From positions 1 through 64,000 of the forward strand of contig NZ_BHZE01000005.1 in assembly GCF_003851885.1 (NCBI RefSeq): a stretch of DNA of 64,000 nt, read 5' to 3'. A program made the position numbers and the translations under genes. Numbering within the stretch: the stretch's first letter is position 1; each line of letters begins with the position of its first letter. The DNA comes from Thermaurantimonas aggregans. Lineage in GTDB: Bacteria; Bacteroidota; Bacteroidia; Flavobacteriales; Schleiferiaceae. Positions 11,377 to 64,000 of the stretch are shown in pieces. Under the pieces are notes generated by a model that saw only the letters and a list, made by a program, of their open reading frames with translations, was not told where the DNA came from and did no database searches.

Positions 11377-11525
11377 GGGCGTGCCCCTCACTTCCTTCGC
11401 TTCGCTCTGTCGTTCGGGTCGGTCCCTTCCGGGCTCGCTGTTCGCTCGGTGCCTCACTTCGCTCGGCACTGCCGGCTCTGCCGGCACCCTACAGGCACCT
11501 CACGCGGCAGCAGCCTGTCGGCTGC
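11377..11525. repeat. Structured dispersed repeat, copy A
   Basis: A GC-rich block beginning GGGCGTGCCCC and ending in GCAGCC-TGTC-GGCTGC. A second copy lies at 63199-63347. The copies share a 37-base core (11416-11452 versus 63239-63275) and a 51-base 3' part with about six mismatches in total. The segment between GCCCC and GGGTCGG differs completely. A stem GTGCC/GGCAC (11449-11453 with 11465-11469) corresponds to GTGC/GCAC with a different interior in copy B. It fills most of the 314-bp gap before gcvT. It is most likely a high-copy structured element; I see no credible protein. Confidence 0.75.
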
Positions 11526-58170: not shown

Positions 58171-59322
58171 TTACAGAATTCCTTTAGTAGTAGGCAGGAT
58201 GAGGTGGTCTGGGTCGCGACGAATCGCCATTCGCACGGCACGGGCAAAAGCTTTGAAAATGGCTTCAATTTTATGGTGTTCGTTGGTGCCCTGAGCTTGT
58301 ATGTGCACGTTGGCGCGGGCAGCATCTGCAAAGGACTTGAAGAAGTGTGAAAACATTTCGGTAGGCATATCGCCGATCTTTTCTCGAGTAAAGGTAGCTT
58401 CCCACACCAGCCAAGGGCGTCCGCCGAAATCTACAGTAACAAAAGCCTGACAATCGTCCATCGGCAAGGCATAGCCGTAGCGCTCTATTCCGCGTTTATC
58501 GGCCAAAGCCATTGAGAAAGCTTCGCCCATGGCGATAGCGACATCTTCTATGGTGTGATGCTCGTCGATGTGCAAGTCGCCATTGGCGCGCAGGTAGAGG
58601 TCGAGACTGCCATGACGCGCCAGCTGCTCAAGCATGTGGTCAAAGAAGCCTAGACCTGTGTGAATATCAGATTGTCCGCTTCCATCGAGTTGAAGGCGAA
58701 TCTCAACGTCTGTTTCGCTTGTGGTGCGTCGGTGGCTTACTGTGCGGTTCAGTCGGAAGAGGAATTGATACACTTCGCGCCAATGGGCGACGATGTGGTC
58801 AGGTACCACATCGGGCGGCAAGGCGTGTAGGGGAGAGGTGAGGTAGATGCTTCGGCTACCGAGATTGCGCGCCAGCAATACATCGGCAGCACGGTCGCCA
58901 ATTACCCATGAATTGGCGAGGTCGTAATCGCCCTGCATATAGTGAGTGAGCATGCCAGTGCCGGGCTTGCGGGTGGGCTTGCCCTCGTGGGCAAATGAGC
59001 GGTCGATGCACACTTCGCGAAAGGCAATGCCTTCGCCGGCCAGCAGACGGAGGATGAGCTCTTGAATGGGCCAGAAAACTTCTTCCGGATAGCCGGGTGT
59101 GCCAAGGCCGTCTTGATTGGTGACCATCACGAGGTCGTAGTCGAGCTGTCGGGCGATTTTGCCGAGGTATTCGAATACGCCAGGCAAAAAGGAGAGCTTA
59201 TCGATGCTATCGACCTGATAGGTTTCGGGGGGCTCGTGTATAAGGGTGCCGTCGCGGTCGATGAAGAGCAGTTTCTTTTTGGTATGGCTCGTTAAGGGAG
59301 TGATGCTATGAGGTGTGGTCAT
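58171..59322 (-). CDS. hisB: Bifunctional histidinol-phosphatase / imidazoleglycerol-phosphate dehydratase
   Basis: A 383-residue fusion. The N-terminal HAD-type histidinol-phosphatase has [10 protein letters not shown] (nucleophile Asp near 20), MVTNQDG near 67 and a metal-binding Cys/His region. The C-terminal IGPD domain (about 195-383) has the manganese motifs [13 protein letters not shown] and [16 protein letters not shown]. It performs steps 6 and 8 of the pathway. It is separated from hisC by a 416-bp gap filled mainly by a structured repeat, unlike all other gene junctions of this operon. Confidence 0.96.
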
Positions 59323-59406
59323 GTTTTCTAAAATTTTACGGTTAGGTCAATGGGTGGAATATGTGTTTGAACATTTCAATGATGTGGCAAGGCCGGCACA
59401 TCTTTT

Positions 59407-59670
59407 CGCGTGAGGGATAGAAGCGGATATGAGCCGCAGCGGGTGGGGAATTGCGGCACCTGGGCGAGGCTGGCTGGCCCGAAGGGCAGACAACGCAGCC
59501 CAGACGATATCAGCTGGAGCTGATATGTCTGGACATGCCCAGATGAAGTCGGCTACTGCCGCTAGGATAAGCCAAGTCGGTGGTGCCGCCCCCACCCGCA
59601 AGGCGAATATGAGCGGATAGCCCGGCCTGAGCAGCTGCCCGAAAGGGCATGCTGCGAAGGACACGCCCAA
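59407..59670. repeat. Structured repeat element inside the his operon (hisC-hisB gap)
   Basis: A GC-rich, non-coding block. Outer stem 59439-59448 pairs with 59590-59599 (10 bp) and inner stem 59453-59460 with 59582-59589 (8 bp), with AATT bulged. A 9-bp palindrome ATATCAGCT-GG-AGCTGATAT is at 59507-59526. A further hairpin at 59631-59655 (GCAGC/GCTGC and TGCCC/GGGCA) closes with a GAAA tetraloop. AGCGGATA occurs at 59422-59429 and again at 59612-59619. Short ORFs across it change frame and look spurious. The rest of the gap (59323-59406, 59671-59738) holds nothing I can name. Confidence 0.7.
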
Positions 59671-59738
59671 ATGAAAGCTCTCTTCTAACCCTTGTCTGGA
59701 CAAGCCCAAATCAACATTCAAAAAATTACTGCGCTCAT

Positions 59739-60776
59739 TCATATTTCGGCAAGGGCTTGGAGGAGTTGGTCGTTTTCGGCAGGGGTGCCAATGGTGATGC
59801 GAAGGCACCCTTCGCAGAGGGGCTGGCGGCTGCGATCGCGCACTACGATGCCGTTGCTGAGCAAGTGGCGATAGGTGGACTGGGGGTCGATGAAGCGCAC
59901 GAGCAGGAAGTTGGCGTCGGAGGGGTAAACTTGTAGCACGTTCGGCAAGCTGCTGAGCTGTTGGGCTACGCGACGACGCTCGGTGCGGATGAGGTTAATG
60001 CGCTGATTTATGGCCTTGTGACTGTCGAGGGCAGTGTAGAGGTATGACTGGGCGGCCTGGCTGAGGTTGTAGGGCAACTTGATGCGATAAAGCACGTTGA
60101 TGATTGATGGATTGGCCAACGCCATCCCGACGCGCAGTCCGGCAAGTCCCCAGGCTTTGGAGAAAGTGCGCAGGAGGACCAGATTGGGCTGGGTGGTGAG
60201 CAAGTCGGTGAGTCCGGGCTGGTCGGCAAAGTCAACATAGGCTTCGTCGACTACTACAATTCCGTGAAAGGCCTCGAGCAGTCGTTTGATGGAAGTTCGG
60301 CTTAGCAGATTACCCGTAGGATTGTTAGGCGAGCAAAGGAAGATGATGCGTGTGAAGGGCCGCAATGCCTGAAGAATGGCCGGCTCATCGAGCTGAAATT
60401 CAGGGGTGAGTAAGACCTGCTGTATGCCAACATCGTGAATGTTGGCTTGCACTTCGTACATGCCATAGGTGGGCGGACAGGTCAGGATGGAGTGCTCACC
60501 CGGTGTGCAGAAGGCTCGGATGAGCAGGTCGATGGCTTCGTCGCTGCCACTGCCGAGAAAGATATGATCCGCTGGCAGGTCAATGAGCGAAGAAATTTTT
60601 TGTCTTAAATCAGTATGATGGGGATCGGGATAGCGGTGAAAGGGGGAGTCGTCGAAGGGATTTTCGTTGGCATCGAGGTATATACGCGCTCTGCCTTGAA
60701 ACTCGTCGCGAGCGGAGGTATAGGGCTTTAGTTGGCGGATGTTGGGCCGCAAAAGAGCATCGAGGTCGAAAGTCAT
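59739..60776 (-). CDS. hisC: Histidinol-phosphate aminotransferase
   Basis: A 345-residue PLP fold-type I aminotransferase that makes histidinol phosphate from imidazole acetol phosphate and glutamate. The N-terminus (LDANENPF near 33) is typical. The PLP-phosphate region SGSDEAID is near 77, CSPNNPTGN near 150, the PLP-ring Asp-x-x-Tyr (DEAYVDF) near 177, and the Schiff-base Lys in FSKAWGLAGLR near 208. The ATG overlaps the hisD stop by 4 bp. Confidence 0.96.
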   Translation of the reverse strand: MTFDLDALLRPNIRQLKPYTSARDEFQGRARIYLDANENPFDDSPFHRYPDPHHTDLRQKISSLIDLPADHIFLGSGSDEAIDLLIRAFCTPGEHSILTCPPTYGMYEVQANIHDVGIQQVLLTPEFQLDEPAILQALRPFTRIIFLCSPNNPTGNLLSRTSIKRLLEAFHGIVVVDEAYVDFADQPGLTDLLTTQPNLVLLRTFSKAWGLAGLRVGMALANPSIINVLYRIKLPYNLSQAAQSYLYTALDSHKAINQRINLIRTERRRVAQQLSSLPNVLQVYPSDANFLLVRFIDPQSTYRHLLSNGIVVRDRSRQPLCEGCLRITIGTPAENDQLLQALAEI

Positions 60777-63198: not shown

Positions 63199-63347
63199 GG
63201 GCGTGCCCCCGGCGAAGGTGCTCGCAAGCACCTTGCCGGGGTCGGTCCCTTCCTGGCTCGCTCTTCGCTCGGTGCTACGCTGCGCTACGCACTGCCGGCT
63301 TCGCCGTCACCCTCCAGGCACCTCACGCGGCAGCAGCCTTCGGCCGC
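63199..63347. repeat. Structured dispersed repeat, copy B
   Basis: The second copy of the element at 11377-11525, same orientation. Its variable hairpin is near-perfect: CCCCGGC-g-AAGGTGCT (63207-63222) pairs with AGCACCTTGCCGGGG (63227-63241) around CGCA. The stem GTGC/GCAC (63272-63275 with 63289-63292) corresponds to GTGCC/GGCAC in copy A. It sits immediately upstream of the his promoter, preceded by a T-rich stretch as in copy A. Confidence 0.75.
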
Positions 63348-63473
63348 TTTTAATTACTTTTACTAAAACCAGTTATTGAAAGACTGATTTGTGCAGATTA
63401 TGCTGCGAATTTTTGCCGATAAATTTTTACTCACCCCAAATCCCTCTTTGTTGCCAAAGGCAACAGAGATCCA

Positions 63474-63582
63474 CAGATCCCGACAAATCTCCTCTGAGCT
63501 TTCGTCGGTAGGCAGATGGAGGTGGTAAGTAGAAAAAAGCCCTTAAAACATTTTCGCCCTACGACACAAGGCAGGCATTCCC
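63474..63582. repeat. 109-bp direct repeat, copy 1
   Basis: Identical to 63892-64000 except for two bases (T/C at 63494 and A/G at 63561), with copies 418 bp apart. Both begin CAGATCCCGACAAATC and contain TCGTCGGTAGGCAGATGGAGG. It is non-coding as far as I can tell; a 90-codon ORF from 63516 runs through unrelated repeat material and is not believable. Confidence 0.85.
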
Positions 63583-63762: not shown

Positions 63763-63891
63763 GCCCGCGCGGCAGCGCATTCATATAGTCCAAAACGATA
63801 AACCTAACGAAAACCCACACCCCTTCAACACCCATTAGCGAGTCCTGCAGGCAATAATTCCCCCCTAATAAATCCAATGGAAATAGAGCCG

Positions 63892-64000
63892 CAGATCCCG
63901 ACAAATCTCCCCTGAGCTTTCGTCGGTAGGCAGATGGAGGTGGTAAGTAGAAAAAAGCCCTTAAAACATTTTCGCCCTGCGACACAAGGCAGGCATTCCC
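63892..64000. repeat. 109-bp direct repeat, copy 2 (cut by window end)
   Basis: Second copy of 63474-63582; the window ends inside or at the end of it, so the true repeat may be longer. The 860 bp from 63140 to the window end contain only repeat elements and no gene I can support. Confidence 0.85.

Follow-up and report, generated by a model that had tools for sequence, protein, structure and literature searches.

The his operon of Thermaurantimonas aggregans raises the question of what has come to lie between two of its genes. Within the window, by which we mean the whole stretch of 64,000 nucleotides that was analysed, hisC (59739-60776, minus strand, an open reading frame with a Pfam Aminotran_1_2 match) and the two-domain hisB downstream of it (58171-59322, minus strand, an open reading frame with Pfam matches to IGPD and to a HAD-type domain, Hydrolase_like) stand 416 bp apart, the spacing that an initial annotation of this DNA had given for them. 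The structure that it had ascribed to the gap was borne out by strong folding, dinucleotide shuffles being less stable on both strands (z -3.9 on the plus strand and -4.1 on the minus strand, with 0 of 100 shuffles as stable as the gap on each strand). There were no terminator-like sites, that is, a hairpin followed by a T run, in 59200-59850, and an Rfam search of the gap at a permissive threshold gave two chance matches only (E 3.3 and 3.9). We consider it probable that the gap holds one copy of a non-coding, non-autonomous mobile element of the Flavo-1 type, which in this lineage was inserted at the hisC-hisB junction, was likely moved in trans as a folded single strand and is probably carried as a tolerated passenger. 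Flavo-1 (Rfam RF01705) is a structured RNA according to extracts of Weinberg et al. 2010 (PMC2864571), and the excerpts of the sparse literature on it give no function. Among papers on repeats of such a kind, none was recognisable as describing this element by its title or the start of its abstract; papers containing the core letters were unrelated to it, judging by their titles.

Dispersed copies and the parts of the his copy

The proposal that the gap carries a structured, genome-dispersed repeat was supported by BLAST against the own genome, which returned 43 matches at E<=0.1. The non-self matches fell within query positions 63-338 of 409 (59323-59329 lying outside the query), and, except for a few bases next to the element ends, the 70 bp after hisC and the 85 bp before hisB were unmatched elsewhere in the genome. 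A covariance model, R1, was built from 27 sequences: 16 from this genome (G000), 4 from G001 of the same genus and 7 from G014 of the same family. With 66 of 320 candidates scored, it gave at least 44 matches at E<=0.1 in the own genome, at least 20 of them above 150 bits, the 16 build sequences matching by construction. A pattern search of 50 loci in this genome yielded 40 end-to-end copies, the his copy included: 20 have the long arm found at his, 1 is a diverged long-arm copy (L112, 184 bp), and 19 have the same ends and different cores (111-140 bp). Other-core copies are also found elsewhere in the window, at 11377-11505 and 63199-63328. Two copies, L002 and L004, are 99% identical and have different flanks, which fixes the ends of the element and points to recent spread. 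Plasmid and phage collections contained no match to the element; a 23-base pattern was not found in viral contigs and, among named genomes, occurred in two contigs (one uncultured Flavobacteriales MAG). Directly 3' of copies, for instance L004, L005, L008 and L011, there is often a GC palindrome (GCAGCGGCC...GGCCGC or like) with an A/T-rich tail, which was not seen at the his copy. A separate 116-bp direct repeat, 97% identical, lies at the end of the window (63467-63582 and 63885-64000).

From the R1 match, the ends of the 40 copies and the L002/L004 pair, the element at his spans 261 bp, from GGGCGTG to CACGC, at 59408-59668 on the minus strand, which is the his sense; all features below are read on that strand. 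The R1 match of the his copy scores 176.4 bits over all 182 positions, the his copy being among the 27 build sequences. The terminal stem pairs GCGTG (5' arm, 59662-59666) with CACGC (3' arm, 59408-59412), and both sides are changed in G014, to GCGCC/GGCGC; by eye, the stem is GCGTT/AACGC in L198 and GCGCG/CGCGC in L071. It is followed by a side hairpin, P1 (59626-59660), variable in sequence, in which 96.1% of cells preserve the five pairs of the model. This is the hairpin that had been described as GAAA-capped: the hairpin itself is there, and its loop is GAAA on the plus strand only, with UUUC at this place in the his mRNA. The predicted 18-bp stem is real as two exactly paired arms, 59439-59448/59590-59599 and 59453-59460/59582-59589, which together make up the long arm: its 5' side (59582-59599, 8 + 10 exactly paired bases) corresponds to inverted repeats I3 and I6 and to covariation helices 6 and 7, and its 3' side (59439-59460, 10 + 8 paired bases with a 4-nt bulge) is likewise defined by inverted repeats and covariation. 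At the apex lies a variable insert (59504-59581), absent from short-apex copies and different among others, which contains the expected 9-bp palindrome at 59507-59526 (59507-59515/59518-59526). The element is a folded unit with a short terminal stem, a side hairpin and one long arm that varies among copies.

The annotation had further pointed to the octamer AGCGGATA at 59422-59429 and 59612-59619 and suggested that it could be a duplicated target, with one mobile element nested in another. The two octamers are present at these places, each within one copy of a 13-nt repeat of 85% identity. Read in the his sense they form a 5' box (59612-59619) and a 3' box (59422-59429), both TATCCGCT, which are exact in 13 and 14 of the 20 long-arm copies, respectively. 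Both boxes are exact and in the same places in 13 of the 20, which indicates that they are parts of the element and not a target duplication. In five further long-arm copies the 5' TCCG is changed to GTGG and the facing 3' letters read CCAC, and a sixth copy has GAGG/CCAC; these matched changes place the boxes on opposite sides of one arm. A target duplication at AGCGGATA is thereby refuted, the boxes facing each other across the arm and changing so as to pair. In addition, the 43 BLAST matches included no copy in which the outer flanks are joined without the core; copies with other cores share the element ends. Insertion of an element within an element could draw on two degenerate copies of the element 5' end that are present in the gap, one at the arm apex (59526-59547) and one outside and upstream of the element (59693-59714, 86% identical to the former). 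These stretches may be scraps of other copies, and with the boxes general to long-arm copies we regard nesting as extremely improbable.

Covariation, insertion site and gene direction

We then considered the fold in an alignment of 46 sequences, of which 18 are from this genome, 4 from G001 and 24 from G014. L009 and L011, which have a long side hairpin, stand outside the structure alignments, as do the copies with other cores and the diverged L112 copy; L004 and L006 are in alignments A1 and A3 and absent from A2, the source of R1. In a structure of 43 pairs, 91.8% of 1881 cells were paired, and both sides were changed in 22 of the 43 pairs. Covariation across the three genera was 0.248, as against 0.118 +/- 0.005 in shuffled alignments and at most 0.075 when the structure was slid, a comparison in which the structure is favoured over its slid versions because it was partly derived from the tested sequences. 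The stem, the side hairpin and the arm all covaried across three genera. The count of further pair types opposes the fold, with 29 observed against a shuffled mean of 33.9 and 500 of 500 shuffles as high, and 4 of the 43 pairs fail in at least half of the 46 sequences. Wobble pairs as a guide to the strand gave contradictory counts: the his strand had 49 G-U against 43 A-C cells, a single doubtful pair accounting for 17 of the A-C cells; leaving out two clade-fixed apical pairs gave 7 G-U against 43 A-C, and a different alignment and structure gave 91 against 58.

The copies have a one-sided T-rich flank. In this genome, 38, 39 and 39 of the 40 copies have T at positions -1, -2 and -3, and all 40 have a purine at +1, so that there is no duplication directly at the element ends. 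G014 gave 27 pattern hits; setting aside 3 of odd length leaves 24 canonical copies, of which 20, 20 and 13 have T at -1, -2 and -3. The fold, the T-rich site on one side only and the missing duplications lead us to infer movement as a single strand by an enzyme acting in trans: most likely, an enzyme supplied in trans would read the folded single strand and would join the element to the 3' end of a T-rich tract without duplicating the target.

Copies also have a preferred direction relative to genes. Crude ORF calls put a co-directional gene upstream of 30 of the 38 copies for which such a gene could be called in this genome (17 of 18 resolved long-arm copies and 13 of 20 others) and of 23 of 24 copies in G014. 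The co-directional upstream stop codon lies within 100 bp in 27 of 30 cases here and in 19 of 23 in G014, at a median distance of 39.5 and 25 bp, respectively. Relative to the element, and naming the upstream gene first and the downstream gene second, the flanking genes were ++ in 14, +- in 14, -+ in 6 and -- in 2 of the 40 copies here, with 4 unresolved, and ++ in 10, +- in 13 and -- in 1 of the 24 in G014; in the unfiltered hit sets, which include all 27 G014 hits, tandem cases stood at 25 against 4 (p about 1e-4, with copies counted as independent). Placement 3' of genes, in the direction of the gene, and mostly within 100 bp of its stop codon, could mean selection for a function at the 3' end. 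The strong fold would then be that of a functional RNA element, selected for stabilising or processing the message of the gene before it; at his it would protect hisC or set it apart from the distal genes. The bias is strong for long-arm copies and weaker for the others. We consider a selected role of this kind unlikely: direction is mixed in three Flavo-1-rich genomes, in which 26 of 40 copies are co-directional with the preceding gene (model turned), a weaker bias than here. Moreover, passages of a transcriptome study of F. psychrophilum (PMC9723704) report Flavo-1 hits sense or antisense, many of them outside transcripts. A further argument against it is that elements at the same junction in other genomes are antisense to his.

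The hisC-hisB junction in other genomes

These elements emerged when the junction was compared among genomes. The 13 relatives whose hisB is two-domain all lack the 416-bp gap, in line with the claim that something had been inserted here: in 10 the genes overlap, and in 3 they are separated by 62, 108 and 133 bp, the 133-bp gap (G026) having an antisense element of its own. Of 38 junctions measured, 18 are overlaps, one is a 2-bp gap, 15 are other gaps of 19-218 bp in which no such element was seen, and 4 contain an element, namely those of this genome (416 bp), G026 (133 bp), G211 (277 bp) and G105 (636 bp, plus a small ORF). This table leaves out G302 and G235, which had partial hisB matches; G191 gave no gap, and a hisB scan of 88 family genomes gave no further junctions. 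The element is antisense to his in G026, G211 and G105. None of these three junction elements was matched by R1 at E<=1; that of G026 scores 39.8 bits with Flavo-1, under the cut-off of 42, and those of G211 and G105, which had no Rfam match at the gathering score, were recognised by pattern and by eye. Other genomes in the genus of G026 and G211, for instance G282 and G322, are without the insertion. The insertion appears to be common to G026 and G211, and the four elements therefore probably represent three insertions; in other words, the junction probably took up elements three times. A different palindromic repeat of about 31 bp (CCTAACAGGTTTT...AAACCTGTTAGG or a close variant) occurs in the hisC-hisB gaps of four genomes (L209, L215, L224 and L063).

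For the operon, insertion of the element would have done away with the overlap of hisC and hisB that many relatives have, and would put a strong hairpin, and no terminator, into the mRNA. The his copy is probably a tolerated passenger and not an operon-specific regulator, and is presumably neutral for his. Taken alone, the his operon is an ordinary case. The definition of the element cautions that such operon gaps may be insertions and not regulators.

Comparison with known elements

Several known kinds of element come to mind. A derivative of a retroelement or group II intron was set aside, since neither this genome nor G014 has a reverse transcriptase (RVT_1) match. Like MITEs, which are short, non-coding and dispersed and have inverted ends, the element is short, non-coding, dispersed and bounded by inverted ends; unlike them, it has a terminal stem of only 5 bp and no target duplication directly at its ends, T preceding the 5' end in 38 of 40 copies and a purine following the 3' end in 40 of 40. 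A REP sequence moved by a RAYT (a Y1 transposase), as for the REPs of other bacteria, would share with the element its dispersed, intergenic and hairpin-forming character, the lack of target duplication and the one-sided site, and G014 has a Y1_Tnp gene with a single weak R1 match next to it. However, that gene is flanked by a different palindrome of its own, and we dropped it as a candidate mobiliser. Of 36 Y1_Tnp matches, 12 were examined at their loci, and the 11 besides that of G014 had no R1 match at E<=0.1. The element also differs from REPs, which are palindromes of 20-40 bp according to extracts of two papers (PMC3733652, PMC2817692), the former giving them a GTAG or CGTC tag alongside, and from REP/RAYT systems in that this genome (99.9% complete) has no Y1_Tnp match. 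The REP/RAYT reading is therefore disfavoured, and we hold it to be very unlikely. As a separate observation, hairpins like Acido-Lenti-1 (RF01687; best 35.5 bits, cut-off 37) are found next to the Y1 transposase genes of G018 and G004 (L101, L103, and L102 at about 1961-2040), and the palindrome at the G014 Y1 gene resembles them by eye; a RAYT may thus have Acido-Lenti-1 as its REP.

The closest known relative is Flavo-1. At its gathering cut-off (42 bits) there was no match in the gap or the window, the best match in the genome having an E of 5.3. However, four loci (C144, C124 and C42 of G025, and C2:233 kb of G029) are matched by both models on opposite strands, all above the Flavo-1 cut-off and with R1 E values of 3e-6 to 2e-3, which connects the element with Flavo-1; L047, with GGGCATG...CATGC ends, is matched by Flavo-1 at 62.7 bits and by R1 at E 0.002. 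The element and Flavo-1 both occur in many dispersed copies, 40 here by pattern and dozens over the Flavo-1 cut-off among the G026 matches listed. Across the phylum, Flavo-1 was found above its cut-off in 35 of 296 genomes and R1 matched 10 of 295 other genomes at E<=0.001, both with strict filters; at E<=0.1, R1 matched 10 of 39 relatives. Tentatively, and as one possibility among others, there could be a class of folded, non-autonomous mobile DNA elements across the Bacteroidota of which Flavo-1, on file as a structured RNA since 2010, is the short form. Its members would have exchangeable arms and a terminal stem with compensating changes, and would be inserted next to T-rich tracts by some enzyme other than a Y1 transposase or a reverse transcriptase. 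With the ends, fold, site preference and presence or absence in one operon now defined, the mobile-element reading is testable and, if true, would put right an RNA annotation given to many copies in each genome. The element at his differs from Flavo-1, which Rfam draws on the opposite strand and over 76 positions, in that its long-arm form is 180-377 bp with a GC-rich arm, a terminal stem and a side hairpin; it resembles Flavo-1 in its core, CTATCCG...CTTCTATC, which occupies both sides of the arm, in an often T-rich 5' side, in its many dispersed copies and in its occurrence in Bacteroidota.
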